A stretch of DNA of 64,000 bases from Micrococcaceae bacterium (GTDB lineage Bacteria > Actinomycetota > Actinomycetes > Actinomycetales > Micrococcaceae): assembly GCA_025465475.1 (NCBI GenBank), contig JAODMR010000141.1:1-64000 (forward strand), written 5' to 3'. A model generated the notes under the pieces. It was not told where the DNA came from, did no database searches, and saw only the letters and a list, made by a program, of their open reading frames with translations. A program made the translations under genes and the position numbers. The stretch's first letter is position 1, and each line of letters starts with the position of its first letter. This document shows positions 1 to 19,783 of this stretch, in pieces.

Positions 1-1354
1 CTTCCACCGATTGTCCGACGGCAGCCCTGGTCACTGCACGGAGCAGGAAACGGAGCAGCAACGGCAACAGGTGCGGGCCCGGCTCAATGTCCCGCTCAAG
101 CAGGGCTTCGGCCGCCCGGTACCGGCCGAGGTTGAAGTTGGCCCGCGCCAGGACCGCTGCCGCCTCAACCTTCAGGTCGGGGTCATGGATCGCCGCACCG
201 ATCCGTAGCGCAAGGTTGTTCTGGAACAGCTTGCAGGCAAGAACGGCAGCGCGGAGCAGCTGGGTTTCGGGAACCCGGGCACCGCAATCAAGCGCCCAGG
301 TGACCATGCGCAGCAGTGCTTCAGGCGTGCGGGGTTCCTCCTCCAACCGGCTGACCAGGAGCTGATGCAATTGCAGGCTTCGGGCGGCCGGCACCAGGCG
401 ACGCAGCACCTCGCCATAGGCGGGGCTCAACAGCCGCAGCCCCGCGCCCCCCGCGTCATTCGTCAGGGCCACCAATTGCTGCTCCAGCAACTCGTCGACC
501 GCGTCCGGGCCGGCCAGCTCCTCCACCAGTTCCACTGCCACCGGCTCGGCGAGCGCCACGAGGTTGAGGGCTTCCCGGCCGCCGGGTGAGGTCCGCATCA
601 GTTGCCTGCGGACCACCGCTGCGAGGTCTGGGCTGGGTGTTGGACCATCCTCCGACAACAGCCAGATACCGTGGTGTTCGGTCAGGGCGCCGCTGTTCAG
701 CGCTTCCTGCACCAGCAGCCTGAGCACCAGGGGGTTGCCGCCGGAGGCATGCCGGAACGCGTCACTTGTTTCGTTGGGGACATGTCCACCAAGCAGGGCG
801 GTGCACAGCTCGTGGCTTTCCTCTCCGGTCAACGGAAGCAGGTCGAAGCGCTCTGCGGCGCCCTCGTGCCAGAGCCGCAGCATCGGCTGCGGTATGCCGG
901 GGCGTGGCTTGCACGCTGCCACCACCTTGGCCCACCCTGCCTGCACCAACTCGGTGATCATTTCCGCGGTCGCTTCATCCACGGCCTGGGCATCGTCAAC
1001 CAGGATCAGCCCAACACCGGCGGCCGGGTCGGGACCGGTCCCGGCATCGGCGCCGTCGGTGCCCAGGTGCGCCCACAGGGTGCGCAGGACGGCGACCGGG
1101 GAGCTGACATCGGCCACCCCCAGCTGGACCAGGTAGGGTGCCAGCACACCGTAGGGCACCGTGGAGAGGCTGGGGCTCCCCTGGACCCGCAGGACCGACC
1201 GGAAGTGGCCGGTGTCGGCGCTGATCCGGCCGAGCAGGGAAGAAGCGCCCAACCCTGTCTCGGCGACAATGAACACCGCCCGGCAGTCATCCGATGCCAG
1301 GGCTGCCCGGATGGCGCGTTCGGTATCGGCCCGGCCAACCCACGCGCCGGTCAC
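1..1354 (-). CDS. LuxR-type large ATP-binding regulator (LAL/MalT-like), 3' end beyond window
   Basis: About 451 N-terminal codons are visible; the HTH end lies outside the window. The start is a GTG at 1352-1354 inside the GTGA that also carries the TGA stop of the upstream regulator, so the two genes are probably translationally coupled. The protein opens directly on the ATPase domain (MTGAWVGRADTERAIRAAL). The P-loop reads AETGLGASS near residues 33-41: Ala stands where the invariant Walker A Lys should be. Walker B (LILVDDAQAVDEA) is intact. The segment STVPYGVLAPYL resembles the same region of the complete regulator at 9280-12078. A winged-helix and TPR-like helical region follows, as in STAND/LAL proteins. 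Family role (known): ligand- and ATP-gated transcription activation through a C-terminal LuxR HTH. The missing lysine suggests weak or no ATP hydrolysis (inference). Confidence 0.8.
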   Translation of the reverse strand, partial: MTGAWVGRADTERAIRAALASDDCRAVFIVAETGLGASSLLGRISADTGHFRSVLRVQGSPSLSTVPYGVLAPYLVQLGVADVSSPVAVLRTLWAHLGTDGADAGTGPDPAAGVGLILVDDAQAVDEATAEMITELVQAGWAKVVAACKPRPGIPQPMLRLWHEGAAERFDLLPLTGEESHELCTALLGGHVPNETSDAFRHASGGNPLVLRLLVQEALNSGALTEHHGIWLLSEDGPTPSPDLAAVVRRQLMRTSPGGREALNLVALAEPVAVELVEELAGPDAVDELLEQQLVALTNDAGGAGLRLLSPAYGEVLRRLVPAARSLQLHQLLVSRLEEEPRTPEALLRMVTWALDCGARVPETQLLRAAVLACKLFQNNLALRIGAAIHDPDLKVEAAAVLARANFNLGRYRAAEALLERDIEPGPHLLPLLLRFLLRAVTRAAVGQSVE

Positions 1355-4239
1355 CAGGCAGCAGTTCCGGTCCCGGGACGCCGGGTTCGCACCAGGGCGG
1401 TTGGCGCCGGGGAGGAGAGTGCTGCGGGCAACGGGAACGCGTGGGGCAGGGATGGGGTGCCCAAGGATGGCGGGCCCGCGGTTGGGGTGCCCGGAACGGG
1501 CCGGACGTGCAGGGTGGGTTCAATCTCGGCGCGGGAGGTGATGCCGAGTTTGGTGAAGATTTGGTACAGGTGGCCTTCCACCGTCCGTACTGACACATCC
1601 AGGGCGGCAGCGACTTCGCGATTGCTCATGCCTTTCGCCGCCAGTTTGGCCACCTCACGTTCCCGTTCGGTGAGCTCCGGCCCTTCCGTGCGCGGGACCA
1701 ACGGCAGCACGGGCAAGGCACGGACCAGGCGGTCCAACCGGTGTTGCGCCGCCCTCGCCGAAAGCGTGTCCCGCGCGTCCCTGGCAAAATCCACGGCAAG
1801 TACGGCGCAGCGTGACTCCACGGCGTCCAGTTCCAATTCAGAGGCCTGGGCGGCCGCCTCCAGGAGAATCCGGGGGTCCTTGGCCAGGCTTCCCCGGGCA
1901 ACAGTCTGGTTAAGCTCAGCCATCGGCCCCTGGCGGCGGGCTGACACCTCCTCCAGACGCTGCAACTCCTCATCGCTGCCATGAACTGTCGCGCCGAAAA
2001 GGCTGATGGAAGCGGTGGTGAACCGGCCGGCAGCCAGGTCCAATGCCGCAGACTCGAGCAGACGCTCCTTGGCCTTGGGGTCCCCCAACCAGCGCCTGGC
2101 CATGTGGCCGCAGAACTCGGCCATGGAGGTGACAAGCCAGTCGGCATCGGGGCCATCCACGGGTGAGGCAGACAGGAACGCGGTTGCCTCCCGCGCGTCG
2201 TCAACCTGCGCGTAGGCGAAGGCGAGCGCCTGGTGCGCGAGCCGGGAGAACATCCGCTCGGCGTGGCTCTCCAGCTGCGCCTTGCCGGCCAGCAGGGAAC
2301 CGATTGCGAGATCTCCCCGTCCGGCGTAGGTGTACGCCAGGCCGAGACCCAATTCCACCATGGCGCCGCTGTAGGGCATGGTCGCGGGGCGTTCGTCCAT
2401 GGCGTTCGTCAGCAGGCGGATGCAGGTCCGCCATTGCCCGGTGAACAGCAGGGCGGCGAACAGGCCCTCGCGGCACCGGTCATTCAGTCGCTGCTGGACG
2501 CCCGTCTGGAGGGCCAGTTCCCGCACTTCCGCGGCCAGCCCGAGCGCGTCCAATTCCCGCCCGGTCAACGCGTAGGCCAACACCAGCAGGCTGCCGCAGT
2601 CCAGCCGCACGCCGGTGGTCAGGCCGTTGCGCCATCTTGCCTCCAGCCGGTCCACGATCGCGGAAAACTCGCCCCGATGGGAGCGTTCCGCCAGTTCAGC
2701 CACTTCCAGAACCTGTAGGACGGCCTCCTGTGCGCTGTCTGCTCCCCCTGAGGTTCCTTGATTCCCCTGCACCGAGGTTCGGGCGGCCGCAAGAACCTGG
2801 GCCACCCGTTCGGGCCGGCCGGCGGAGAGCTCTGCCAGGGCAAAATCGAGCCAATAGGACCCGACGGCGCCCAAGGGCAGTCCTTCCAGTTTTGCGGGAG
2901 AAACCTTCTCCAGGACGGCCACGGCTCCTGCAGGATCCCCCTGTTGCAGCATGGCAGCCGCGCGGTGCTGCATGGCCGTCACCCAGTTCCCGTCCGCCGG
3001 GCCGAACCGTTCCAGGCAGCGCAGCGCGAACACCGGGTCGGATCGACCCAGAGCCGCTGCCGCTGCCGCCAGTGCCGTCTCCGGGGCAAGTCCAAGCTGG
3101 CAGTCCAGGGAAAGGGCGGCAAAGTTCAGCACCTCCTCGGTTGTCAGCGGTGTGTCCAGTTCACCCAGGACGCGTGACAGCTGGCGGTGCATGCGTTGGC
3201 GCTGGGATAGCTGGAGCCAGCCTCGAATGACCTCTGCCATGTAGGGTTCCCGCAAAGAAGCCCAGCGGCCCTCCTCGCCGGTCACCACCATCAGGCCCGA
3301 CTCTTCCAGCCGCACGAGCACTTCAGGGTCCACCAGACGGATCAGGACAAACAGGGGAATCCGCCGCGTCAGGGCCAGATACTCCATGGCAGCGGTTGCC
3401 TCGGGATCATGGCTGTCCAGCCGTGCCCGTACCAGTTCGCCAAGCACCTTGTCGGATTCCAGCACGATGGGACCGCTGATCGTCCACACGTCATTGCGTA
3501 GCTGCAGGTTCCCCGTCCGCCGCTGTTCGGTGACGATGGCGTGCAGTACGAGCGGATTGCCGCTGCTGCTGGCGTGAAGCGTGGTGACTGCCGCAGCGGA
3601 CACCCGGTTGTGCAGGACGCCGTGCAGCAGGGTGGCGACTTCTTCCCGGGTAAAGGCATCCAGTTCAACACTTGCCAGCACGCGATCCTTGAGCAGCCAC
3701 AGGAAATCTTCGGGCAGGTCGGAGGTGCTGCGGGCCAGCACCAGGATCTTGGCCGTGCCGCTCAACAGCAGGTGCATCAGAAGCGCAATGCTCATGCCGT
3801 CGATCGCCGGCAGGTCATCGAGGATGACGAGTACGGGACGCCCGGCCGCATCCGCACGGATCAGCCCGGCCATGCCGTGCACTGCCGCTTCAGGCCTGCC
3901 CAGGGTTTCCGGCTCCAGTTTCGCGGCGAGGAACGCCACCTGGCCAAACGGGGACGCGGTGCCCCTGCTGGTGCCATGCAGTTTGATGATGTGGGTGTCC
4001 CCGGCCAGTGCGCTTTCGACGGCGCGGGCGAGCGTGGTTTTTCCGACTCCGAGGGGGCCGGTGATGACGACGCCCCGGAACGCCGGGTTTCCCAACTGGT
4101 CCAGCACGGAGGAAGCAACGTCCTGGCGCAGCACGGAAGACCACAGGCGGCGTTCGGCCGCGCCCATGGCACGCTGCGCTCCGACGGGACCGCCCAGCAA
4201 CGCTGCTGAGGGCACGCCAGGAGGTGAATCCACGCTCAC
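1351..4239 (-). CDS. LuxR-type large ATP-binding regulator (LAL/MalT-like)
   Basis: 962 aa. GTG start with a GGGGG stretch about six bases upstream. N-terminal P-loop GPLGVGKTT (residues 61-69), Walker B LVILDDLPAIDG, then a long alpha-helical TPR-like region and a LuxR HTH at about 856-909 (LTEREREVAKLAAKGMSNRE and VSVRTVEGHLYQIFTKLG). This is the LAL architecture; family members act as cytoplasmic activators responding to small ligands or protein partners. Unusually, about 53 residues rich in Pro, Ala and Thr follow the HTH, which normally ends such proteins. Its TGA overlaps the GTG start of the next regulator (GTGA at 1351-1354). It lies downstream of an exopolysaccharide-type sugar transferase on the same strand, 182 bp away, so polysaccharide control is a reasonable but unproven guess. 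Confidence 0.88.
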   Translation of the reverse strand: MSVDSPPGVPSAALLGGPVGAQRAMGAAERRLWSSVLRQDVASSVLDQLGNPAFRGVVITGPLGVGKTTLARAVESALAGDTHIIKLHGTSRGTASPFGQVAFLAAKLEPETLGRPEAAVHGMAGLIRADAAGRPVLVILDDLPAIDGMSIALLMHLLLSGTAKILVLARSTSDLPEDFLWLLKDRVLASVELDAFTREEVATLLHGVLHNRVSAAAVTTLHASSSGNPLVLHAIVTEQRRTGNLQLRNDVWTISGPIVLESDKVLGELVRARLDSHDPEATAAMEYLALTRRIPLFVLIRLVDPEVLVRLEESGLMVVTGEEGRWASLREPYMAEVIRGWLQLSQRQRMHRQLSRVLGELDTPLTTEEVLNFAALSLDCQLGLAPETALAAAAAALGRSDPVFALRCLERFGPADGNWVTAMQHRAAAMLQQGDPAGAVAVLEKVSPAKLEGLPLGAVGSYWLDFALAELSAGRPERVAQVLAAARTSVQGNQGTSGGADSAQEAVLQVLEVAELAERSHRGEFSAIVDRLEARWRNGLTTGVRLDCGSLLVLAYALTGRELDALGLAAEVRELALQTGVQQRLNDRCREGLFAALLFTGQWRTCIRLLTNAMDERPATMPYSGAMVELGLGLAYTYAGRGDLAIGSLLAGKAQLESHAERMFSRLAHQALAFAYAQVDDAREATAFLSASPVDGPDADWLVTSMAEFCGHMARRWLGDPKAKERLLESAALDLAAGRFTTASISLFGATVHGSDEELQRLEEVSARRQGPMAELNQTVARGSLAKDPRILLEAAAQASELELDAVESRCAVLAVDFARDARDTLSARAAQHRLDRLVRALPVLPLVPRTEGPELTEREREVAKLAAKGMSNREVAAALDVSVRTVEGHLYQIFTKLGITSRAEIEPTLHVRPVPGTPTAGPPSLGTPSLPHAFPLPAALSSPAPTALVRTRRPGTGTAAW

Positions 4240-4421
4240 TTTTTACCCCCGTGGCCGTGAACCGATTGGATACGCAGATGGCTCTGTCGTTGCAGTCACC
4301 TTACAGGCAAAAATCGGCCTCACAAACGGCGTTCCACGCAGCGATACCGGCAACGCGGGAGAATGGTATGGCGCCCTCGGCCGGCGGGCGCTATACCGGG
4401 AAGCGACGGTGCTGGCGGCGG

Positions 4422-5963
4422 CTAGAAGGCCCCGACCGGCTTGACCAGCATGCGGGCGGTGCGGACGATGATCATCAGGTCCATGGCGATGGACCAGTTC
4501 TCCACGTAGTAGAGGTCCAGCCGGACGCTGTCCTCCCAGCTGAGGTCCGAGCGACCGTTGACCTGCCACATGCCGGTCAGACCCGGTTTGATGTACAACC
4601 GCCGGTGCACGGAACCGGTGTAGGCGGTGACCTCACTTTGCAGCGGGGGCCGCGGGCCAACCAGGCTCATGTCACCCTTGAGGACGTTCCAAATCTGGGG
4701 CAGTTCGTCCAGGGAGTATTTGCGCAGGGTTCGCCCTGCCTTGGTTACCCGTGGATCATCGCGCAGTTTGAACAGTGGACCGGCGCCCTCATTGTGTTCG
4801 CGGAGCGCCTCGAGGTCCTGCTCAGCGGTTTGCACCATGGAACGGAACTTGTACATCCAAAAGGTCCTGCCGCCCCGGCCGATCCGCTGCTGGCGGAAGA
4901 CGACTGGCCCGGCGCTGTCACGGTGGACCCAGAGAGCGATGCACGCAAGCAGCGGCAGCAGCAGCAACAGGGCTGTACCGGCCAGGACAACGTCCAGCAT
5001 TCGCTTGAGCAGGTGTTTGACGCCGGAGAACTGCGGCAACTCAACATGCATGAGGGGCAAACCCTCAACGGGCCGGAAGTGGATCCGCGGGCCGGCAACG
5101 TTCGTCATTCCGGTGGCGAGCACCAGTCCGGTGTTGCTTTCCTCCAATTGCCATCCCAGGTTCCGGATGTAGTCATTGCCTCCCTTGACGCGTCCGGCGA
5201 CGACGACGGCGTCTGCCTGTACACGGGCTGCGGCGGCAACGACGTCGTCCAGGCCTGCGACGACGGGGATGCTTCGGCCCTCGACGGCGACGGATTCCTT
5301 CCGGTTTTTGCCCTGCACCGCGGCGCCCACAACGTCGTAGGCGGCCCCGGACTTGCGCTGGATCTGATTAATGACGTACCGGACGTCGTCGGGCCTGCCG
5401 AGCACCACGACCCGGGAAAGGTAATGGCCCCTGACCCGCTGCCGTGTCAGCCAGGAACGCCAGAGCCAGCGAACAAGGGGGAGGCAGATCAGGCCGAGGG
5501 GCAGCGCGATGGCGAAGTATCCCCTGGAGAGGTCCAGCTTGAGGGCCAGGATCATGATGGCCAAGATGCCGAAGACCAGCAGGGTGGCGTTGATGACCCG
5601 CTTGTATTCCTCGGAGCCGATGCCCAGCGCCCGGACTTCCCGGCTGCGAAAAGCCTCCAGGGTGCCTAGCCAGGCGAGCGCGATGAATCCCGCCACCAGG
5701 GGTGCCTGGGCATCAGGCAGGACCACGGCTTGGCCGGGTTCCAGGCCAAACCGCAGCAGGTGGGCCGCGGCGAGGACCAGGCACACGACGGCGATGTCTC
5801 CTGCGAGCAGCAGACGTTGATATTGGCGGGACCAGGCCGTGCCGGGCTGCAGGCTGCCGGAGTCCGGCGTCCGCGGCCGAACGTAGCCAACCTTTGGGTA
5901 CTGGACCTGGAGCTCGGAGGTACCGGTGGAAGTGCTGCCGACACCTATGTCTGTCGCTGTCAC
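4422..5963 (-). CDS. Polyprenyl-phosphate sugar-1-phosphate transferase (exopolysaccharide initiation)
   Basis: 513 aa from the GTG at 5961-5963, chosen because AGGACGG sits upstream; an in-frame start at 6158 would add a low-complexity Arg/Pro extension. Several hydrophobic helices occur at the N-terminus (for example GDIAVVCLVLAAAHLL), followed by a Rossmann-like CoA-binding_3 region (SRVVVLGRPDDVRYVINQIQ), another membrane helix, and a C-terminal bacterial sugar transferase domain with KRMLDVVLAG, GRTFWMYKFRSM, SLDELPQIWNVLKGDMSLVG and KPGLTGMWQVNGRSD. This is the WcaJ/WbaP/CpsE-type family. Members move a hexose-1-phosphate from a nucleotide sugar to undecaprenyl phosphate at the cytoplasmic face, the first step of exo- or capsular polysaccharide assembly. 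No other polysaccharide assembly gene adjoins it; it is enclosed by LAL regulators. The sugar used cannot be read from sequence. Confidence 0.9.
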   Translation of the reverse strand: MTATDIGVGSTSTGTSELQVQYPKVGYVRPRTPDSGSLQPGTAWSRQYQRLLLAGDIAVVCLVLAAAHLLRFGLEPGQAVVLPDAQAPLVAGFIALAWLGTLEAFRSREVRALGIGSEEYKRVINATLLVFGILAIMILALKLDLSRGYFAIALPLGLICLPLVRWLWRSWLTRQRVRGHYLSRVVVLGRPDDVRYVINQIQRKSGAAYDVVGAAVQGKNRKESVAVEGRSIPVVAGLDDVVAAAARVQADAVVVAGRVKGGNDYIRNLGWQLEESNTGLVLATGMTNVAGPRIHFRPVEGLPLMHVELPQFSGVKHLLKRMLDVVLAGTALLLLLPLLACIALWVHRDSAGPVVFRQQRIGRGGRTFWMYKFRSMVQTAEQDLEALREHNEGAGPLFKLRDDPRVTKAGRTLRKYSLDELPQIWNVLKGDMSLVGPRPPLQSEVTAYTGSVHRRLYIKPGLTGMWQVNGRSDLSWEDSVRLDLYYVENWSIAMDLMIIVRTARMLVKPVGAF

Positions 5964-6301
5964 TCGTCTACCCGTCCTGCTGTTGAAGGGGACCGACGAC
6001 GCCGGGGGAAGCCTCGGTCTCAGAAGGCTATGGCGCCGCCGGCCCCGCGCGGGGACCGGCCGCTCGTACGCGGACGGAGCTGCTTGGCGCAGCTGCCGGA
6101 AGCCGCTCCCAATGGCGGAGGAGGCATCTGCCCCCGCCGCCGGAAGTGGCCGGTACACCCCACGTTAGGCTTGGCCCCAGCCGGCTGCACGAGTACACAG
6201 ACGTGTTGTTTGAGCCCGGACTACCCCAAAAATCTGGTGTTCGATACCGGTGACGATAGCGAACCACTTGCCCGAATAGGGGCACCACTGGTTGACCGTC
6301 T
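5964..6301. other. Intergenic region upstream of the sugar transferase
   Basis: About 338 bp between the end of the 6302-8992 regulator and the chosen transferase start. If translation began at 6158, the right 195 bp would be coding, but that stretch encodes only an Arg/Pro/Ala-rich tract without a fold. No clear sigma-70 promoter or hairpin terminator was recognised. It is the likely site of the transferase promoter. Confidence 0.4.
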
Positions 6302-8992
6302 TTAGGTATCCAGATCAGAGGCCAAAGCCTTAGCCAGCTCCGCCCGGCTGGAGACGTGCAGCTTGGCATAAATCTGGTAAAGATGGCCCTCGACGGTCCG
6401 CACGGAAATGCGCATATGCTCCGCGATCTCCTTATTGCTCGCACCCATCGCAGCGCGCCTGGCCACCAGGGCTTCGCGGGGGGTGAGCGCGTCCAGTAGA
6501 TCTGGAACGGCGGGTACGGCGGCGACGTGCGGGTTCTCCTCGACTCGGCTCTGAACCGAGCGCAGCACGGCGCGGTTGCCGGATGCGGAAGCGACCTTTT
6601 GGGCGGCCGCGGCAATATCAACGGCGAACAGGCTGTTGCCGCTTTCGGTCGCCAGGTTCATTGCCACCAACAGCAGCTGCGCGTCCCTGCCTGCCAGGCC
6701 CTTGGCGTATGCCTCGCAGAGCTTGGCGAAGGGGCCCTGGGTCTGGGCTGCAAGGGCCAGCAGGCGGTCGACGGAGGAGCTGTCCCCCAAGCGGACGGCG
6801 GCGCTAAGGGCCACAAGTTCCAGGCCATAGGCTCCTTCGGCCTGTTGTTCCGCCGCCAGCGCGCGCAGTTGGGACACAGCGTCGGTCAGGGAGGAAGCAA
6901 CCCCGGCTGTCAGGGCGACAAAGTACTCAACGCGCCGTTGCATGTCACGGGTGAGCCCGGAAACAGCCAACTCAAGGCGGACCCCGTGCGAACCTGTCCG
7001 GTCAAACTTCCCTTGCAGCGCCCAGCAGTAGTCAGCGGCAGCGGCGGCCACAGCTGCCAGGTCAGCGGGGTCTCCCTCTCCGAGCTGCTGCAGCGCCGGT
7101 TCCAGGTATCGCAACGCCTCGTCCGCGCGGCCCGCGTACGCAGAAATCAGGCCTTCGACCACTTCGCCGGCCGTTCCGTCGTGCGCGCCAGCGGTCCGGG
7201 TACTGCCACGCAGGGTCAGGTCCGCGTCGGAGGGTATCCCGGTAATCATGAACAGGTAGCCCAGGCGGCCGGTTACCGAGGCGCGGCACCAGGCGGACAC
7301 CCCCGAGCGTGGCAGGGCCTGCGCCAGGGCCGCTGCCAGTTCAAGCGCTTCATCCTGCTTATCCGTCGCCGCCCAGGCTTGTCCCTGCAGGGCATCGGCC
7401 TGCAGCCGAAGGTCCATGGGCGCGTCCCGCCAGGCCTGCCGATCCGCGCCGAGCACCTCCGTCACGGCGCGATATTTGCCCTCATCGGCCGCAAGCTCTG
7501 CCTTTCCCAGCTGCACCATCAGGCTCAGCAGGGCCGCGGCCGTGCCGGTGGCCGCCGCCGTGCCACCGTGTTCCTTGGCGTCGGAGGCCTTGGCATCGGA
7601 GGCAAGGAGGTCTTCCGCCTGCTGCAGCGCAGCGGACCGTTCTGCCGACGTTCTGCGGATGCGTGCTTCGAGCAGGAGCAGCGCCACTTCCACCGCGGCC
7701 GGGAGCGGGCCCCGGAGGGTGCCGCGGATATGTTCAATGGCCACGACGGCAGCCTGGGGTTCCCCGCGCACCGCGTAGGCGCGGCCTATCTCCAGCACGG
7801 CGGCAGGATGGGCAAGGTAACCGGGTACCGCTGAGGCAAAGCGCAGGGCCAGGTCCGGTTCCAGGGCCTCGTTGGCGGCACCGGCCACCCGCAGCAGGAC
7901 CTCCGCAGACAAGGGGACGGCACAGTCGAGGCACCAGGCGGCATAGTGGAAAGCTGAGACAGGGGGCAACTCGTCTTCGCCGCATTCCTGCCGAAGTTTG
8001 TACAGCAACTCGGCCCGGCGGCGGAGCCCCACCTGAGCGGCGATCACCTCGGCCGTCAACGGACAGGCGAACCGAACGTTGCGCCGTTCTGAGCTCCCGA
8101 TTTCCAGCAGTCCCTGATCCTCTAACCGGCTGAGCGCGTCGGAAGGCTCGAGCCGGAGCAGCAGAGGCAGGGAAATGAAACCGCAGAGAGCCACCAGCTC
8201 CAACAGTTCATGCTCGGTTCGGTGCAGGCGGGTCAGCGGCCCTGTAACCGCGTCCGTGAGTTGGGGACCGTGCGTCACCGGTGCCGAGGTAAGCACCCAA
8301 AAGCCCCCCTTGGATTTCAGCCGTCCCGCGTGAACGTACTCCTTCGCCAGCAGTTGCAGCAGCCGGGGGTTGCCCTCGGTGGCGTGCCACAGCTCCGTGA
8401 CGGCAGCCCTGGTCGGCCGATCCTTGAGCAAGGCGTGCAACATCCGTCCCGCCTCGGCCTGGGATAGTCCGTCAACGTCGATCCGCCGGAGCCATCCTTC
8501 GTGCCAGAGGCTGAGGAAATCGTCGTGGCACGCGTCCAGGTTTTGGCAGATGACGACCAGGCGCACCGTCCTGTTCAGGGCCAGTTGGCTGATAATCAGG
8601 GCCGACAGCTCGTCAACTTCATCCGCATTGTCCACGACGAGAACCAGTTGCCGGTTACGGCCGCGGTCACGGAGGCGCCGTGTGAGGGTCTGCAGCAGGA
8701 GCACCGGCTCCTCCCGCACGGAAACGTCCAGCTCGCCCAGGAGGAATCCGAGGGTTCCCAGGGGCACGCCCATGAGCAGGGCGCTGCCGCGGACGGGCAG
8801 GACGTCCACGTTCGCGCCAGGCAGCGCCGACTGGACCAGTGTGGTCTTGCCGGCGCCGCGTTTGCCCACCAGGACGGCACCCAGATAGTGCGGCGACGCG
8901 AGCGCGTCCAGAAGCCCGGAGGCAAGTTCGTTTCGTGGCATCAAGGGGGGCGCGTTCATCCGGACACCTGGGGAGGAGTGGTCAGAGGGCAT
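6302..8992 (-). CDS. LuxR-type large ATP-binding regulator (LAL/MalT-like)
   Basis: 896 aa from the ATG at 8990-8992 (MPSDHSSPGV), preceded by GGGAAGGG; a longer in-frame form from 9058 adds 22 Arg-rich residues and is less likely. P-loop VGKRGAGKTT (residues 42-51), Walker B LVLVVDNADEVDEL (Asn after the Asp), winged-helix region, long TPR-like helical repeats, and a C-terminal LuxR HTH at about 836-896 (ASNKEIAEHMRISVRTVEGH then LYQIYAKLHVSSRAELAKAL). It is a paralogue of its neighbours but clearly diverged from them. It precedes the sugar transferase on the same strand, with about 340 bp between. A dyad at 9083-9109 lies about 90-120 bp upstream of its start and may control it. The ligand and target genes are unknown. 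Confidence 0.87.
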   Translation of the reverse strand: MPSDHSSPGVRMNAPPLMPRNELASGLLDALASPHYLGAVLVGKRGAGKTTLVQSALPGANVDVLPVRGSALLMGVPLGTLGFLLGELDVSVREEPVLLLQTLTRRLRDRGRNRQLVLVVDNADEVDELSALIISQLALNRTVRLVVICQNLDACHDDFLSLWHEGWLRRIDVDGLSQAEAGRMLHALLKDRPTRAAVTELWHATEGNPRLLQLLAKEYVHAGRLKSKGGFWVLTSAPVTHGPQLTDAVTGPLTRLHRTEHELLELVALCGFISLPLLLRLEPSDALSRLEDQGLLEIGSSERRNVRFACPLTAEVIAAQVGLRRRAELLYKLRQECGEDELPPVSAFHYAAWCLDCAVPLSAEVLLRVAGAANEALEPDLALRFASAVPGYLAHPAAVLEIGRAYAVRGEPQAAVVAIEHIRGTLRGPLPAAVEVALLLLEARIRRTSAERSAALQQAEDLLASDAKASDAKEHGGTAAATGTAAALLSLMVQLGKAELAADEGKYRAVTEVLGADRQAWRDAPMDLRLQADALQGQAWAATDKQDEALELAAALAQALPRSGVSAWCRASVTGRLGYLFMITGIPSDADLTLRGSTRTAGAHDGTAGEVVEGLISAYAGRADEALRYLEPALQQLGEGDPADLAAVAAAAADYCWALQGKFDRTGSHGVRLELAVSGLTRDMQRRVEYFVALTAGVASSLTDAVSQLRALAAEQQAEGAYGLELVALSAAVRLGDSSSVDRLLALAAQTQGPFAKLCEAYAKGLAGRDAQLLLVAMNLATESGNSLFAVDIAAAAQKVASASGNRAVLRSVQSRVEENPHVAAVPAVPDLLDALTPREALVARRAAMGASNKEIAEHMRISVRTVEGHLYQIYAKLHVSSRAELAKALASDLDT

Positions 8993-9082
8993 GGCGTTGC
9001 CCTTCCCGCCCTGTGGCCGACATCGACGTCGGTAGCGGAATGCAGAACCGATTTCCACCCGAAAGGCCTGTATAGCTCACGT

Positions 9083-9109
9083 TTCCCAGCTTTCCCCTGC
9101 TACTGGGAA
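9083..9109. promoter_or_regulatory. Inverted repeat upstream of the third LAL regulator
   Basis: TTCCCAG (9083-9089) and CTGGGAA (9103-9109) form perfect 7-bp arms around a 13-bp spacer. On the minus strand a TATACA (9069-9074) lies just downstream, in a position compatible with a -10 box, but no good -35 was found. The dyad could be an operator for the 6302-8992 gene or a stem at the 3' end of the 9280-14861 gene pair. There is no U-tract, so an intrinsic terminator is unlikely. Confidence 0.35.
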
Positions 9110-9279
9110 GTCTAGGGAGGGCCGGTGCATCCCGGCGTGAGTAGTTTCTACCCGTTTCCTTGGCTGGGCCACCGGCCGGACGGGACTGGACCGATATACC
9201 GCGCCCGGATTCAGCGTTCCGGACCGCTCCCGATTTACGGACCGAGGCTATGGGAGACCCGCAACGAGTTTCAGGTCCG

Positions 9280-12078
9280 TTAAGGCCTGTTCTCCTGTTT
9301 CCTCAGTGCAAGTCGCAATTCACTCCGGTGACGAACGCCGAGCTTGTCGAAGATGCGATAGATGTGGCCCTCAACCGTTCTCGTGGACAGGGAGAGTTCC
9401 GTGGCGATGTCGGCGTTGCGTTTGCCCTGTGCCACCAGATCGGCGATCTCCTGTTCCCGCCGGGTCAGCCCCTGTGCTTTCGAGGTTCGTCTGTCCAGCG
9501 TTGCGGGGCCCGGCCCGGCTGCGAGCTGGCGTGCCCGTTGCAGCAGCTCTTCATCCCCGGAGGAGATCGCCAGACGCACCGCTGCTGCCGTGCATTGCTG
9601 CTTAAGGGTGAACGTTCCGCCTGGACCGTCGGCGGTTGCCAGGCGCAGCAGGGTGGCCGCATCACCGGCAAGGCTAGCCGCCGCAAAGGCATGGGCCTGC
9701 GCAGCAACCGGCCCTTCCATGGAGGCGGATAACTGCTCCACCCGTGCCAGATTTTCCACGTCGCCGGCACGCAGGCTAAGCAACCGCAGTTCGAGCTCGA
9801 CCGCAAGCATGCCAGCGTCCTGGGCACGCCCCGCGAGGGAGGCCAGCCGAGCCAGCTCTTTTTGATTTCCAGGATTACGGACAACTGAGGCAGCTGTGGC
9901 GTAGCCGGCACCCAGCAGCTGTAACTGGCCGGCATCCGGTGGCAGGCGCGTGGGCACTGCCGGCTCCTGCCCTGCGCTGCCTGTGAGTGCCGCACAAAGG
10001 GACGCCATGCCGGCCGCAAGCGGTATCAGGCCGCCGACCTGGTGTACGCGGAAGGCGATGAGGGCGCTGGTGAGGCTGTCCGCTGCCTCGTCCCAGCGCC
10101 CGTTGTGCAGTTGCAGCACACCGCGCGCGAAATCCAGGACGCCGCCGAAGTAGACCAGGCTCCGTGGTGAGGTGAGCGCGTAACTCCGCACCGCTTCCTG
10201 GAACTCGTCGAACCTGCCTGCCCGAAGCAGGGCAGTAACGTGCCGCAGCAGCACGAATTCCCAGTAGATCATCAGGGACTCGTTGCCTGCTGTGGTTATT
10301 TCGAGGGCTTCGGAGGTGTAGCTGACAGCGCTTTCGGCCCGGCCGGTGGAGGCGAGGATATCGCCCCGAAGAGCCAAGGCAAGCAGCCTTGATGCGTCGT
10401 CGCCGTCGCCGGTGGAATCCGCAAGGACGCGGTCAACCGCCTCTTCGGCCTCACGGTGCCGTCCGGTCCAGGTCAGTGCCAGTGCATCGATCAGGTCAGC
10501 TCCGCGGCGGGATGAGGTCAGCTGGGCAGTGGTGGCACCCATTGGCCGCCCTGCTTCCTGCAGGCGCCCGTCCTCCGACCGTTCCAAGCGCTCGATGGCA
10601 GTCCGCCATCTGGCGGCCACCGCGGAGAGCCTGCCGGTGGGAAGGCCCTGGTAGAGGACCAGCTGTACTTCCAGCAGGATCGCCATCCGGGCAGTTGCCG
10701 GGTCCGCCGCGCCCTCCGCCGCATTCGCCAGCAGCGCCCTGGCCGCCTCGATTCTGCCCTGGTGGAAGGCCGCCCGGGCTTTCTGCACGTCGGCTGCCAC
10801 CTGCCAGGCGGGGTCGTCGACGGCGGCAGCGGCACGGAGCGCGAAGTCCGCGTCGTAAAGGTTGTTGGCAGTCGTTGCGGCGGCGACCAGCACCGTGGCC
10901 GGGACGACCACGCCACAATCCAATGACCAGCTGACCCGGCGCAGCAAGGCGTCAAAGGCGGGCCGCTCCGTATCCATGGCCGCCATCACCTTTTGCCGCA
11001 GCCGGGCGCTGCGTGCGGCTGGAACCAGCTGCCGTGCCGCCTCTCCATATAAAGGATGGGCCGGGCGCAACAACCGTTCCCGATCGGCTGACACGGTCAG
11101 GAACCGCGCGGAGACGAGGGCGTCGATCTCCTGGTGTAGGCCCAAGCTGAACGCCGCCGAAAGCGGCAGGGGTTCCGCCAGGGCCACGAGTTCAAGGGTT
11201 TCCCGTTCGGCTCGGGACAATGCGGAGAACTGTCCTTGGATGAGGTCGATCAGCTGACCTCCGGCGGGCAGAATGCGTTTCTGCAGCAGCCACACGCCGT
11301 ACCGCTGCACCAGTGCTCCCGTTGCAAGACCGTGGGCCACCAGGGCCTGCAAAAACATCGGATTCCCACCGCTGAGTCGGGCCAGTTCCGCGCTGGTGCT
11401 CAGCAGCACGGGGGCGCCCAAAAGTTGGCGGGCCAGTCGTTCGACGGCGGGCAAATCCAATGGCTGCAGCCGGACCACCTGCAGTTGCCGGCGCTCGGCC
11501 TGCCGCCGGATTGCTGCGGGCAGGTCGGTTATGCTGCGGCTGAGCACAAGCAGGACGATCGTTTTTGAGTCGGCGAGCTGAGCCAGGATCTCCGCGCTTG
11601 CTTCATCCAGAACTTGGGCGTCGTCGACAACGACCAGAACACGGTCATCCGCAGCCCCGGCTCCTGGTGTTGCCTTTGCTTCAAATCCCTGTTCCGTTCC
11701 GGCCGCGGGCACGGAAGCGGGCGCAGTCTCGTCTTCTTCCCCTGGCCCCGTGCGCAACCGCGCGCGCAGGGCCCGCATGATCGCCATGGGCGAGGCGACG
11801 GCCTTGGGTGCCAGCTCGGGCAGCAAGGGGGCAAGCGCCCCGTAAGGGACCCGGGAGAGCGCCGGGCTGCCATGAACATGCAGCGTGCCAAGGTGCGGCA
11901 GTTGCTGCCGCACCGCGATTACGAGCGCGCTTTTGCCTAATCCGGCGCCGGCGACGACCAGGACCCCGGCGTTCTGCTCAGATTGAAGCGCTGCGAGGAT
12001 GTCGGCGAGTGCCTGCTCCGCGGCGACCAACGGGGACCGGGCCGACGGGATCTGGCCGCGCTCAGCACTCACCGTCAT
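9280..12078 (-). CDS. LuxR-type large ATP-binding regulator (LAL/MalT-like)
   Basis: 932 aa. The ATG (12076-12078) is part of an ATGA that also holds the TGA of the upstream regulator, so the two are coupled. P-loop GAGLGKS (residues 44-50), PYGALAPLLPELAP, an Ala/Gly-rich insertion of about 35 residues (near 120-150), Walker B RVLVVVDDAQVLDEA, TPR-like helices through the middle, and a LuxR HTH at about 871-932 (LTRREQEIADLVAQGKRNAD, LSTRTVEGHIYRIFDKLGV). It is the closest of the complete set to the truncated gene at 1-1354, sharing the PYG-LAP segment and the DDAQ Walker B. Unlike that gene it keeps the catalytic-type P-loop Lys. A cytoplasmic transcription regulator is the expected role; the signal is unknown. 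Confidence 0.88.
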   Translation of the reverse strand: MTVSAERGQIPSARSPLVAAEQALADILAALQSEQNAGVLVVAGAGLGKSALVIAVRQQLPHLGTLHVHGSPALSRVPYGALAPLLPELAPKAVASPMAIMRALRARLRTGPGEEDETAPASVPAAGTEQGFEAKATPGAGAADDRVLVVVDDAQVLDEASAEILAQLADSKTIVLLVLSRSITDLPAAIRRQAERRQLQVVRLQPLDLPAVERLARQLLGAPVLLSTSAELARLSGGNPMFLQALVAHGLATGALVQRYGVWLLQKRILPAGGQLIDLIQGQFSALSRAERETLELVALAEPLPLSAAFSLGLHQEIDALVSARFLTVSADRERLLRPAHPLYGEAARQLVPAARSARLRQKVMAAMDTERPAFDALLRRVSWSLDCGVVVPATVLVAAATTANNLYDADFALRAAAAVDDPAWQVAADVQKARAAFHQGRIEAARALLANAAEGAADPATARMAILLEVQLVLYQGLPTGRLSAVAARWRTAIERLERSEDGRLQEAGRPMGATTAQLTSSRRGADLIDALALTWTGRHREAEEAVDRVLADSTGDGDDASRLLALALRGDILASTGRAESAVSYTSEALEITTAGNESLMIYWEFVLLRHVTALLRAGRFDEFQEAVRSYALTSPRSLVYFGGVLDFARGVLQLHNGRWDEAADSLTSALIAFRVHQVGGLIPLAAGMASLCAALTGSAGQEPAVPTRLPPDAGQLQLLGAGYATAASVVRNPGNQKELARLASLAGRAQDAGMLAVELELRLLSLRAGDVENLARVEQLSASMEGPVAAQAHAFAAASLAGDAATLLRLATADGPGGTFTLKQQCTAAAVRLAISSGDEELLQRARQLAAGPGPATLDRRTSKAQGLTRREQEIADLVAQGKRNADIATELSLSTRTVEGHIYRIFDKLGVRHRSELRLALRKQENRP

Positions 12079-14861
12079 TCAAGCACCTGACGCAATTCGG
12101 CACGGCCGGAGACGTGAAGCTTCTCGAAGATCCGCCCCAGATGCCAGTCCACGGTCCGGGGTGAAAGGCTCAGCCGTTGTCCCATACCGGCGCTGCTTTC
12201 CCCGGAAGCAGCAAGCTGCGCCAGCTCAAGCTCGAATTTGCTCAGCTGACTCAACCTCTGGTCGATACTGTGGGCGTGCCGGAGGTGGCGGAAGCTGTCG
12301 TTCTCCATGGTGCGGGCGGTGCGCATGAGGGACCTGTCTCCCACCTTTGCTGCCACCGCGTGCGCCTGCCGCGCCGCCTCATGGGCCAGCAGGATGTTAT
12401 CGAGGAGTTGCGCCGTTCGGGCCGTCCGCAGCAGGGCCTCAGCGTCGTCGCGCAGCAGTCCGGCAGCGAGGTCCGCGAACATGGCGGCACTGCTTCCTGG
12501 AAGGGAGCGGGCGATCTGCTCCAGCTGTGTGGCGGCTGTCGCGTTGCCGAGGCGTGCCGCCGGAGCCAAGCAGGCCATCGCAACAGCGGCGGCGCTGCGC
12601 TCCTTTGCCTGCTCAGCCAGCAGGCACAGCTGATCGGCTGCCTCCTCAGGGGTGGGCACAATAAAGCCATTACCGGCAGGGACTGGCACGGCCGGCTCGG
12701 CTCCGGACGGAAGCGGCCCGTCGTCGGGCTTCATGCCGGCAAGAATGGCTGCAGCGGCAGCGTGAAAGTATTGCGCCAACTGCTGCGCTTGCCAGGATGG
12801 TCGCTGCTGGAACTCCCGGGACTGAACGAGGTAGCGGGCTGCCCTTTCCCTGTTGCCTTGCAGGGCATAGGCGTAACCGGTCACCGCTGTCGCAAGAGGC
12901 AGGACGTCGTCCGTGTCGCGGACGGTGAGTTGGCTGAGGGCTGGCAGAAGCGACTCCATAGCAACGTCGGAACGGCCGGCGGCCGCGTGCAGCAGCCCAG
13001 TGGCCAGCTCCCCCCCGGAGCCCCGCTGGTGCCGCACCCGGGCGGTGTCCTGGTCCTCGCCCACCAGCCGACGACAAACGGCCAGGTCGCCCACCAGGAA
13101 GTATCCCTGGAAGATGCGCTGATAGGCGTCAGCGCGGGCCGGGGCCGGCAGCTGGTTCTCCCGCAGGACCACCATCAGCCGTTGCGCCAACTCCTCCATC
13201 TGCGGCTGTTGACCCGTCGCTGCGTACACCTCGCACAGCAACGCCCCGGCCCGGACCCGCAGCTCCGCCGCTCTGTCATGATCTTCGAAAAGGGCCAGAA
13301 CGTCTGATGGGACATCCCTGTACCTGCCTTCGTAGGCAGCCAGTTCAGAGCGTGCCATCAAGATCTCTGCGCGCAACTCATCGCCGGCGGAAGTGGGAAA
13401 GGCAGAGTGCGGCTCCTCAAGGACAACGCGCTCCAGGTCCGTCAGCACTTGCCCTGCTTCAGCGTGCCGATGCCAGGACGTGCGCAGGACCGAGCTGTGC
13501 AGCAGTTTGAGGCTTATCCAGCCCACTGCCTCACCGGGGTCCTCCGGCGGTGGCACGGCATCGAGCAGTTTGAGGGCCCGGTCGTGCTGGCCCGCGCTGA
13601 TGAGCGCTGTCACTTCGGCCGACACAGCGTCGGGGCTGCGCTGGATCTCCGGAACGGCGTCGAGATAGCGCAGTGCCGACACTGAATCACCCGCCGCATT
13701 GGCCAACCGTGCGGCGCGGAGCGCAAGCTGCGGTTCCAACACCGCTCCACAGTCCAAAGTCCACGAGGCATATCCGACCAGGCTGGCCGGTGGCCATTGA
13801 TCCTGGCCTATCAGGGCCGACACCTCCTCCCACAGCTCACGGCTACGACCGAAGGGGACATGGCTGGCCACCACCACTGCGGTCAGGCCATGACTGATCC
13901 GGACCAGGGGAACCTGCCCCGCGACGATCTGTACAGCCCCCCGCTCTTCCAACCGGTCGACGGTATCCGGCTGGACCAGGCGCAGCGCCACCGCCAACGG
14001 CAACTCGATGACGAATGACAGGATTTCCATCAGCTTCCGGTGCTCCGAGGGGAGCCGGTGGAGCCGTGAGGTCATGACGTCAACGAGCTCGCCCGAGTGG
14101 ACCAGGGGCTCCGCCAGCACCCAGATCCCGTCCTGCTGCACCAGCGATCCGGCGTCCGTTTGTTCCCTGCACATGAGAATCAGGAAGTAGGGGTTTCCGG
14201 CTGTCTCCTGCCAGAGGGCCCGCGCGGCACGAACGGACACCCGGCCACCCAAATGGGCGGCCAGGAGTTCCCGTGCTTCCTCCAGCAACAGCGGCCCAAG
14301 GTCAATGCGCTGCAGGCTGCCGTCGGTCCACAGGCGGAGGATTTCGTCACCGGAACGCAAAACGTCGGTTGTGGTGACCACCAGGGTGACGGCGTTTTGG
14401 CGGCTGAGCTGGGACGTGGCCATCACGGCGAGCTGGTCGAGTTCCTCCGCGTTGTCAACCCACAGAACCACCCTGCGCCCCTGCGCCCGCTTGGCGATCA
14501 GTGCGGCGAGGCCCTGCAGCACCAGCATCGGATTTGCGTACACCTCGTCCGGAAGGTCGCTGAGCAACCAGGCGTAGGCGCCGTAGGGCGTCTTGGCGGA
14601 CACGGTGCTGCCGCGGACGGTGAGGACCAGGACCTCTTCGGCGAGCGAAGCGAGGGCTTGCTGCACCAGTGCGGACTTGCCGATCCCATTCGGCCCGACG
14701 ATGAGTGCTCCCCCGGCGCTGCCGCTGATGGCGTCCTGTACCGCGCGCAGGGCATCCGCCCTGCCAATCCACGGTGTTGCGGGCAGCTCGCCTGCTGACC
14801 GGTCCGGATGATGAGCCCGTGCGGCTCTGACGGAGAAGGCTCTTCCATCCGCCGTTGTCAT
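12075..14861 (-). CDS. LuxR-type large ATP-binding regulator (LAL/MalT-like)
   Basis: 928 aa. ATG at 14859-14861 with GGGGGATCC directly upstream. P-loop GPNGIGKS (residues 56-63), Walker B RVVLWVDNAEELDQL, winged-helix and TPR-like helical middle, and a C-terminal HTH at about 873-928 (LSKFELELAQLAASGESSAG, LSPRTVDWHLGRIFEKLHVS). The HTH is of LuxR type, with DWHL where the others have EGHL/EGHI. It is first in a two-gene unit with the 9280-12078 gene (ATGA overlap) and the first regulator of the array after the housekeeping gene pth (about 170 bp away). The family is known to couple ATP binding with inducer sensing; no target is inferable here. Confidence 0.88.
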   Translation of the reverse strand: MTTADGRAFSVRAARAHHPDRSAGELPATPWIGRADALRAVQDAISGSAGGALIVGPNGIGKSALVQQALASLAEEVLVLTVRGSTVSAKTPYGAYAWLLSDLPDEVYANPMLVLQGLAALIAKRAQGRRVVLWVDNAEELDQLAVMATSQLSRQNAVTLVVTTTDVLRSGDEILRLWTDGSLQRIDLGPLLLEEARELLAAHLGGRVSVRAARALWQETAGNPYFLILMCREQTDAGSLVQQDGIWVLAEPLVHSGELVDVMTSRLHRLPSEHRKLMEILSFVIELPLAVALRLVQPDTVDRLEERGAVQIVAGQVPLVRISHGLTAVVVASHVPFGRSRELWEEVSALIGQDQWPPASLVGYASWTLDCGAVLEPQLALRAARLANAAGDSVSALRYLDAVPEIQRSPDAVSAEVTALISAGQHDRALKLLDAVPPPEDPGEAVGWISLKLLHSSVLRTSWHRHAEAGQVLTDLERVVLEEPHSAFPTSAGDELRAEILMARSELAAYEGRYRDVPSDVLALFEDHDRAAELRVRAGALLCEVYAATGQQPQMEELAQRLMVVLRENQLPAPARADAYQRIFQGYFLVGDLAVCRRLVGEDQDTARVRHQRGSGGELATGLLHAAAGRSDVAMESLLPALSQLTVRDTDDVLPLATAVTGYAYALQGNRERAARYLVQSREFQQRPSWQAQQLAQYFHAAAAAILAGMKPDDGPLPSGAEPAVPVPAGNGFIVPTPEEAADQLCLLAEQAKERSAAAVAMACLAPAARLGNATAATQLEQIARSLPGSSAAMFADLAAGLLRDDAEALLRTARTAQLLDNILLAHEAARQAHAVAAKVGDRSLMRTARTMENDSFRHLRHAHSIDQRLSQLSKFELELAQLAASGESSAGMGQRLSLSPRTVDWHLGRIFEKLHVSGRAELRQVLE

Positions 14862-15034: not shown

Positions 15035-15613
15035 TTAGCGACCGTGGAACTTTTGCTGGGCGTCAAGCAGGCCGGAAACAACCAGCATCTCGGCAGCGTC
15101 GGCAGCTTCGTCAATGAGGAACGGCAGCTCCTTGGACTCCGTGGCCGTGAAGTCCTTGAGCACATGGGTGGCGGCATCCGACCGACCGGGAGGGCGGCCG
15201 ACGCCGATGCGGACCCGGTGATAGTCCTTGGTGCCCAGGGTGGCGGAGATGTCGCGCAGGCCATTGTGTCCGCCCTCGCCACCGCCAAGTTTGAGCCGGA
15301 CCGTGTTGAAGGGAATGTCGATTTCGTCGTGAACGGCAAGGACCCGCTCCGGCGGAACATCAAAGAAGCGGGCCAGGGCCGCCGTCGGACCCCCCGAGGT
15401 ATTCATGTAGGTCGCCGGCTTGGCCAGGACCAGCTTGGGGCCGCCGATCGACAGGCGGCCTTCGGCCACCAGGGCCCGCGCCTTGTGGCTGCGGAAGCCG
15501 GTACCGAGGCGACGGGCCAACTCCTCAACGACCATGTAGCCAATATTGTGCCGGTTACGCGAATAGTCGGGCCCGGGATTTCCGAGCCCGACTATTAGCC
15601 AGGTGTTACTCAT
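15035..15613 (-). CDS. pth: Peptidyl-tRNA hydrolase
   Basis: 192 aa from ATG 15611-15613 ([17 protein letters not shown]); an ATG three codons upstream (15622) is equally possible. It hydrolyses peptidyl-tRNA released from stalled ribosomes and so recycles tRNA. The family signatures are present: GLGNPG, NRHNIGY with the catalytic His, and [10 protein letters not shown] with the acidic partner. Length is normal for bacterial Pth. It is the last gene of the prs-rplY-pth group, 65 bp after rplY on the same strand; rplY-pth adjacency is common in bacteria. Housekeeping and very likely essential. Confidence 0.96.
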
Positions 15614-15626
15614 GTTGTGCATTCTA

Positions 15627-19708: not shown

Positions 19709-19783
19709 TGGTTCCGCCCATAGGATTCGAACCTATACTCCACGGCTCCAAAGGCCGGGGTGCTGCCATTACACCAGAGCGGA
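19709..19783 (-). tRNA. tRNA-Gln (UUG)
   Basis: 75 nt on the minus strand including an encoded CCA. The acceptor stem TCCGCTC pairs with GGGCGGA (one G-T wobble); D-arm GTGT..GCAC; anticodon loop CTTTGGA gives UUG for Gln, with four of five anticodon-stem pairs intact (27-43 is a C-T mismatch); T-arm ATAGG-TTCGAAT-CCTAT is perfect. It lies between the ABC-F gene and glmU, a position known for tRNA-Gln in several actinobacteria. Confidence 0.93.

Follow-up and report, generated by a model that had tools for sequence, protein, structure and literature searches.

Paired LAL regulators, a predicted operator and a structured RNA at an exopolysaccharide locus of the Micrococcaceae

One end of a contig from a Micrococcaceae bacterium (assembly GCA_025465475.1, contig JAODMR010000141.1, here C69) carries a row of genes for LAL proteins, the large ATP-binding regulators of the LuxR family, together with a priming gene for exopolysaccharide (EPS) synthesis. 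This raises the question of why one locus holds so many regulators of one kind, and what they act on. The window analysed is the 64,000-nucleotide stretch at the left end of C69, and an earlier note on it had proposed five co-produced LALs in one coupled array enclosing a WcaJ-type transferase. Our analysis of this locus and its relatives showed two-gene units of a type I and a type II LAL, a predicted operator shared by transferase genes and internal LALs, and a structured RNA ahead of transferases. The reading we favour, and consider fairly probable, is that LAL I-II pairs jointly activate the EPS genes, each other and the RNA, from two-gene operons via operator promoters.

The five LAL reading frames and the transferase do lie on the minus strand where the earlier note placed them, except that the frame at 2-1354 is cut. 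Because the window is the left end of C69, which starts at base 1 in an assembly of 172 contigs, it holds only the N-terminal half of LAL8 (451 residues, without the helix-turn-helix (HTH) domain). The first 127 bases of C69 recur exactly at the right end of contig C47 and, across the whole assembly, were found at those two contig ends only, as would be expected for one broken assembly path. Joining the contigs gives an LAL8 of 896 residues and adds two further LALs (LAL7 and LAL6) and a second transferase (T5). The count of five was therefore rejected: the array is broken by the contig end, and comprises seven LALs and two transferases once C47 is joined. The joined order is pth, LAL13, LAL12, LAL11, T10, LAL9, LAL8, LAL7, LAL6, T5 and polysaccharide-type genes; those beyond T5 on C47 encode a cytidylyltransferase-like protein, a GT4-type glycosyltransferase, a CDP-alcohol phosphatidyltransferase, a protein without a Pfam match and a PKD-domain protein. 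The features in the window are as follows.

15035-15622, minus strand: the syntenic anchor, which from its sequence we take to be pth (peptidyl-tRNA hydrolase)
12075-14861, minus strand: LAL13, type I, 928 residues, adjoining pth; Walker A GPNGIGKS, divergent recognition helix, no upstream operator at 7 bits
9280-12078, minus strand: LAL12, type II, 932 residues, with LAL domains; its start overlaps the LAL13 stop (ATGA, 12078-12075)
9132-9161, minus strand: predicted operator ahead of LAL11, 20.4 bits, with a TAGACT -10-like hexamer downstream
6302-8959, minus strand (longest open reading frame to 9058): LAL11, type I, 885 residues from the chosen start, without a type II partner
6188-6195, minus strand: right half of the operator only, TACTCGTG, 232 nt ahead of T10; the complete site is under threshold
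5974-6058, minus strand: structured RNA element ahead of T10, 69.5 bits with model R1
4422-5963, minus strand (longest open reading frame to 6158): T10, EPS priming gene (polyprenyl glycosylphosphotransferase), 513 residues
1351-4167, minus strand (longest open reading frame to 4239): LAL9, type I, 938 residues, without upstream operator; 50% identity to the pth-proximal LAL of genome G002
2-1354, minus strand: LAL8, type II, N-terminal half, the rest on C47 (896 residues in total); Walker A AETGLGAS, lysine replaced by alanine

For comparison, we drew 149 genomes of the family and found pth in 148. Stretches downstream of pth came from 100 genomes drawn without regard to LALs, and to these we added 15 stretches chosen earlier for holding LALs (our own locus included), with 36 pth-bearing genomes left out; genes were called with our own gene caller, and the stretches of G116 and G160 run off contig ends and are unable to show an array. 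A tree of the 173 LALs in these stretches separates 92 type I from 80 type II proteins, with one unplaced. As FastTree support for the two clades is low when rooted on a distant LAL (0.37 for I and 0.31 for II), which counts against the division, we performed a tree-free test in which the labels were first or second gene of a tight pair, and profiles trained without one genus then classified the remainder. The 72 pairs came from 14 genera, and these held-out profiles classified every one of their 144 members correctly. The median gap of the 76 I-II junctions is 14 bp, 27 being at zero or less and 72 within 100 bp, and the order is I then II in all 72 of the latter; the remaining 29 LAL junctions (18 II-I, 7 I-I, 3 II-II and 1 unplaced) are 147-944 bp apart. 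Both stop/start overlaps reported earlier for the window, GTGA at 1354-1351 and the ATGA noted above, can be read directly and are I-II junctions. LAL I and LAL II are, as judged from their sequences and spacing, a two-gene operon of two old paralogues. A single co-transcribed array was rejected because of the gaps of 147-944 bp between units, many of which carry operators (24 of 29); what had been described as five co-produced regulators is a set of seven, in two-gene units with a solo type I gene.

The partners also change together. They co-segregate by subtype in 731 of 1110 comparisons, where 49% are expected to agree, and 4 of 500 permutations were as high. The Walker A lysine is intact in both partners of 50 pairs, lost in type II only in 15 and in type I only in 3, with type I not scorable in 4. 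One-partner loss is therefore found in 18 of the 68 scorable pairs (of 72) and loss in both in none, a contrast that is not significant alone, since about 0.7 pairs with two dead P-loops would be expected by our arithmetic and two of the pairs with a dead type II have a type I P-loop that is not scorable. An alternative is that the LALs are locally duplicated, independent pathway regulators, and that their order and spacing stem from duplication of a two-gene segment and not from joint function. The copy number of 1 to 7 LALs per locus and the existence of solo type I genes are in keeping with this, as is the description of GdmRI and GdmRII of the geldanamycin cluster as both needed but working independently (PMC6784220). 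However, the invariant I-then-II order and the co-segregation of partners argue against it, as does the loss of the Walker lysine in one partner but never in both, and we regard this alternative as unlikely. Under the reading of joint activation by I-II pairs, the mixed LAL complexes proposed in the earlier note would fit the strict two-gene unit.

The proteins themselves are recognizable as LALs. GerE HTH and P-loop domains were found in the four complete window LALs, and a C-terminal LuxR/GerE HTH is present in all seven, including the C-terminal half of LAL8, LAL7 and LAL6 on C47. Their lengths of 885-938 residues agree with the LAL size of about 900, and a Walker A motif of the form GK[ST] is intact in six of the seven, so that HTH, P-loop ATPase with Walker A, and size all place them in the family; the exception, LAL8, departs from the definition only in the lost lysine. 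Family-wide, Walker A is intact in 81 and degenerate in 6 of 87 type I proteins; in type II it is degenerate more often, with 60 intact and 18 degenerate motifs among 78 proteins (7 rows were not scorable). The recognition helix is nearly identical in the two types, with S-RTVEGHLY in common. An AlphaFold2 model of LAL9 has low confidence (mean predicted local distance difference test score 69, predicted template modelling score 0.44), and its top Foldseek match is 6mfv, a protein of the signal transduction ATPases with numerous domains (STAND) class with tetratricopeptide repeats (E 6e-8, TM 0.19-0.25). We found no LAL9 relatives in viral contigs.

MalT of E. coli and STAND ATPases are alike in their P-loop ATPase, LuxR HTH and, putatively, a helical repeat region. 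MalT acts as a single regulator, whereas the LALs here come in pairs, and the window LALs fall far short of the NCBIfam MalT model (NF003420; best 40 of 537 bits). Their top NCBIfam match, for all five, is AbsR2 (NF050132) at 65-99 bits, far below its cut-off of 850. The LALs of antibiotic clusters (GdmRI/GdmRII; NysRI, NysRIII; AmphRI, AmphRIII; PikD) have the same size, N-terminal ATPase and C-terminal LuxR HTH, and likewise occur more than one to a biosynthetic locus. Multiple LALs and LAL cascades are already known from such loci: gel17 is needed for gel14 expression (PMC6784220 and PMC3282765). Unlike these, the system here has a repeated two-gene unit, a polysaccharide locus, a common predicted operator and an associated structured RNA.

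The position of the pairs is conserved in the family. LALs are present in 44 of the 100 drawn stretches (59 of 115 overall), and the first LAL is of type I in 59 of 59 LAL-bearing stretches. In the drawn set, pth was called in 97, with a LAL among the next four genes in 40, and across all stretches every one of the 173 LALs shares the strand of pth. The recurring order in the Micrococcaceae is pth, one or more LAL I-LAL II units and a target gene, and the transferase comes after 34 of 68 LAL-run ends. The earlier note had named scattered genes with unrelated neighbours in relatives as an outcome that would refute its reading, and this is mostly not what is seen: 48 pth genes are directly followed by a LAL, though some genomes hold LALs elsewhere, and in others another gene comes after them. 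Four of the 59 LAL stretches are without a called pth, and LALs therefore also occur at other places. That LALs usually occur singly does not hold in the family sampled here. In G002 the order behind pth corresponds to LAL9-8-7-6 with 45-52% identity, and LAL13-12-11-T10 is therefore best read as a second module, probably inserted between pth and the ancestral one; the LALs that seemed to enclose the transferase would be better described as two side-by-side modules of LALs and a transferase. A LAL I, a LAL II, the RNA core and a transferase also occur on a contig labelled Sporosarcina beigongshangi (L219; 67.8% GC in the piece), which is probably Micrococcaceae contamination.

K-mer counts upstream of transferases and type I LALs led to TACTCGTG, and the sites extend to an inverted repeat, AAnTCGaGTA-N5-TACTCGTG, with TAGnnTT about 20 nt downstream in most. 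Activator sites that cover a -35 region are arranged in this way, and we regard the repeat as a predicted LuxR-like operator. At 12 bits, in counts that include the sites used to train the matrix, it precedes 30 of 40 transferases, 22 of 90 type I LALs and 3 of 7 separately spaced type II LALs, compared with 21 of 664 other genes, 0 of 31 pth genes and 1 of 130 shuffled sequences. Among type I LALs it precedes 21 of 32 internal ones but 1 of 58 first ones, where first means first within its stretch. With a matrix trained on transferases only, again at 12 bits, sites were found at 14 of 32 internal and 1 of 58 first type I LALs and at 12 of 20 other post-LAL genes, against 9 of 644 remaining genes, 0 of 31 pth genes and 0 of 72 shuffled sequences; a matrix trained on internal type I LALs only recovered 27 of 40 transferases. 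Holding out the genus left 28 of 40 transferases, 12 of 20 other post-LAL genes and 1 of 58 first LALs. Counted by genus, 8 of 13 have a site at transferases and 6 of 9 at internal type I LALs. In our own genome, operators precede LAL11, LAL7 and T5 (17.6 bits) and are absent ahead of LAL13 and LAL9, while the sole exact operator lies about 110 nt ahead of a UDP-glucose/GDP-mannose dehydrogenase (ugd-like) gene. The link to polysaccharide production proposed earlier is thus strengthened, both by the transferases that end LAL runs and by a common operator that precedes transferases and internal LALs and almost never first LALs.

It is also conceivable that the operator is bound by another regulator, and that the LALs control something else and lie beside EPS genes through shared ancestry. 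LAL-operator binding is a prediction only, and in G010 and G013 the LAL pair is followed by an Aminotran_5 gene and a NifU_N gene (SufS/SufU-like), with same-size genes in other genera. However, operators gather at the genes adjoining LAL runs whichever gene that is (37 of 54), and exact sites sit in LAL-bearing genomes: of 33 genomes among the 149 with an exact operator, 31 have LALs, compared with 57 of the other 116, whereas a reversed control pattern has no such tie (LALs in 35 of 57 genomes with it and 53 of 92 without). We therefore consider a separate regulator improbable, and retain the LAL pairs as the candidate activators.

Ahead of the transferases lies an RNA element of about 62 nt that folds into a 13-pair outer stem and a 5-pair inner hairpin. 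In its alignment, 99.5% of 772 cells pair, two-sided changes occur in 11 of 18 pairs, none of 500 shuffles was as high, and slid registers were also far below the observed pairing. The most variable G-C pairs change to G-U and not to A-C, and the RNA is therefore placed on the transferase sense strand. The 43 aligned copies, some of them from close relatives, were chosen by a pattern fixing GAGACC and CCC[AC]G[CG]CG, so that invariance there is by choice; among 63 covariance-model copies outside the alignment, GAGACC is found in 25 and GAGA in 57. A hairpin competing with the outer stem is weak, with 66.4% of cells paired against a shuffle average of 64.3%. A second class, with GAGACT and tracts resembling CCCCCATCCC, comprises the copies adjoining pth (e.g., L096, L098 and L123; 38-56 bits), which lie mostly about 65-200 nt after pth and have an outer stem that by eye varies in step. 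In array-less genomes this class precedes a gene for 438 residues, the size of the Aminotran_5 (SufS-like) gene.

No Rfam 15 family matches the RNA at gathering thresholds in the seven stretches searched, where only a tRNA passes, in five sources; in L036 a weak Scr3202 match coincides with the RNA in position and strand (22 bits, E 1.1, with a gathering score of 52), and at window positions 5900-6310 the sole Rfam match to E 10 is mir-1913 (E 0.086), located elsewhere and on the opposite strand. At E 0.01, model searches run with strict filters gave matches in 80 of the 149 family genomes, a few of them weak, and in 19 of 31 genera; class-wide, 27 of 393 genomes match, those outside the family weakly (E 3.4e-5 to 8.2e-3). 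Taking LAL presence from an LAL9 search at E 1e-12, 75 genomes have both RNA and LALs, 5 RNA only, 13 LALs only and 56 neither, so that LALs are found in 75 of 80 RNA-bearing genomes and 13 of 69 others. All 84 RNA copies in the stretches are on the pth/LAL strand, and an operator lies within 450 nt upstream of 44 of the 55 copies away from pth and 0 of the 29 near it. In a wider set, 55 of 91 copies have an upstream operator and 5 a downstream one. Operator and RNA recur together beside LALs at other loci and, in our own genome, in the interval that separates a polysaccharide deacetylase gene from a convergent gene. In G022, small regulator genes (L167:1609-2313, with a BTAD domain; L168; L169) are preceded by the RNA, two of the three also by an operator. 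An exact match to the RNA core in a 358-base piece of an Acidobacteria metagenome-assembled contig (L222) is likely due to misbinning.

What this RNA does can be read in more than one way. Copies between promoter and transferase argue for a leader role, while copies after pth or beside convergent genes argue for a role at 3' ends. Taken furthest, the latter would make it a family-specific intrinsic terminator that closes pth and LAL transcripts and has no regulatory role. It has a strong stem, and 9 of the 91 copies face a convergent gene. Of 109 pth loci, 27 have a copy within 260 nt after pth, and LALs are nearby in 13 of these 27 and absent from the vicinity in 14. A terminator alone, however, agrees poorly with a mean of only 3.3 T in the 9 nt after the stem, with the loop GAGA and C-tract kept in copies not selected for them (GAGA in 57 of 63), and with the operators upstream of most copies away from pth. 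We see a pure terminator as a serious possibility, though not the one to expect.

What was computed directly is the architecture of the pairs, the operator, the structure of the RNA, how these are linked and how they co-occur across genomes; from this we infer LAL binding to the operator, the I-II complex, the direction of the cascade and the function of the RNA. In the favoured reading of joint activation, each two-gene operon would make a type I and a type II LAL, each with an ATPase and a LuxR HTH, most likely as a joint hetero-oligomeric activator. The operator-less pair adjoining pth would be the entry point, responding to its signal; once signal-bound, it would bind the operator, which covers the -35 region of promoters whose -10 element is in most cases TAGnnTT. 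The promoters so activated may be those of the EPS priming transferase, of additional polysaccharide genes and of more LAL pairs, and transcripts from many of them would carry the structured RNA. This RNA probably either governs how far transcription reads through into the gene behind it or is set free as a small RNA. Two such modules would stand in tandem in this genome, LAL13-12-11-T10 and LAL9-8-7-6-T5. A bolder version, which we put forward only tentatively, is a family-wide cassette in which LAL I and LAL II form obligate hetero-pairs (with one ATPase active and the other Walker-dead in some clades) and activate operator promoters with the structured RNA as primary product, acting as a cis attenuator or a trans small RNA, with polysaccharide and cysteine-desulfurase-like outputs and with pairs stacked in self-activating cascades.

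Several observations weigh against joint activation through this operator. Genome-wide, the operator is not commoner than the reversed control at one mismatch, and exact matches to it occur in 33 genomes, whereas the control is matched exactly in 57. The pattern itself is thus not enriched; what stands out is where it lies and its tie to LALs. No operator precedes 10 of 40 transferases or 11 of the 32 internal type I LALs, the internal LALs with an operator drop to 13 of 32 once the genus is held out, the window transferase T10 has half a site, and TAGnnTT is missing at some sites, including the ugd-like one. Thirteen of the 88 LAL genomes are without the RNA, and five RNA genomes are without LALs, three of these being weak matches (E above 0.002). 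Lastly, the related RNA class after pth is without an operator and occurs whether or not a genome has LALs, and some copies face convergent genes; the RNA is therefore not simply a transferase leader.

The transferase T10 passes the EPS_sugtrans model TIGR03025 (416 bits, cut-off 296) and has a PF02397 (Bac_transf) match of 230 bits, but misses the WcaJ model TIGR03023 (321 bits, cut-off 411), so the WcaJ-type label is not retained. Its start is probably 5963 and not 6158, because uncut homologues have 499-549 residues and 5974-6058 is structured RNA, which the longest reading frame would translate (within window positions 5974-6158); automatic annotation may thus place the transferase start too far upstream. 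Near the G022 transferase (L025:5738-11691) are genes for an adenylyl-sulfate (APS) kinase, TauE, an inositol-phosphatase (CysQ-like) and a protein with a phosphoadenylyl-sulfate (PAPS) reductase domain, hinting at a sulfated polymer or a coupling to sulfate assimilation. Sulfate gene clusters of this type also occur in G001a, G003 and partly G002, by comparison with the G022 genes, on which the Pfam run was made.

LAL regulators are described as poorly studied in PMC3282765. For Arthrobacter luxR genes, PMC9659744 reports no UMCV2 sequence with the architectures of its model LuxR proteins, including the LAL-type RevU. Our search of the open-access literature by title and abstract, a scope that leaves out most subscription papers, found no paper on LAL pairs with EPS genes or on this RNA in Arthrobacter relatives. 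One system here yields a rule for LAL partnering, predictions of an operator, a promoter and a hierarchy, and a structured RNA under Rfam thresholds, all testable in environmental Arthrobacter relatives. It would give a handle on how bacteria of the Arthrobacter family decide on exopolysaccharide production, and offers an example of two LAL paralogues that may work as a single obligate activator. Elsewhere in the window, a tRNA gene lies at 19712-19783 on the minus strand (Rfam tRNA, 57 bits), between the called genes at 17983-19569 and 19918-21852.

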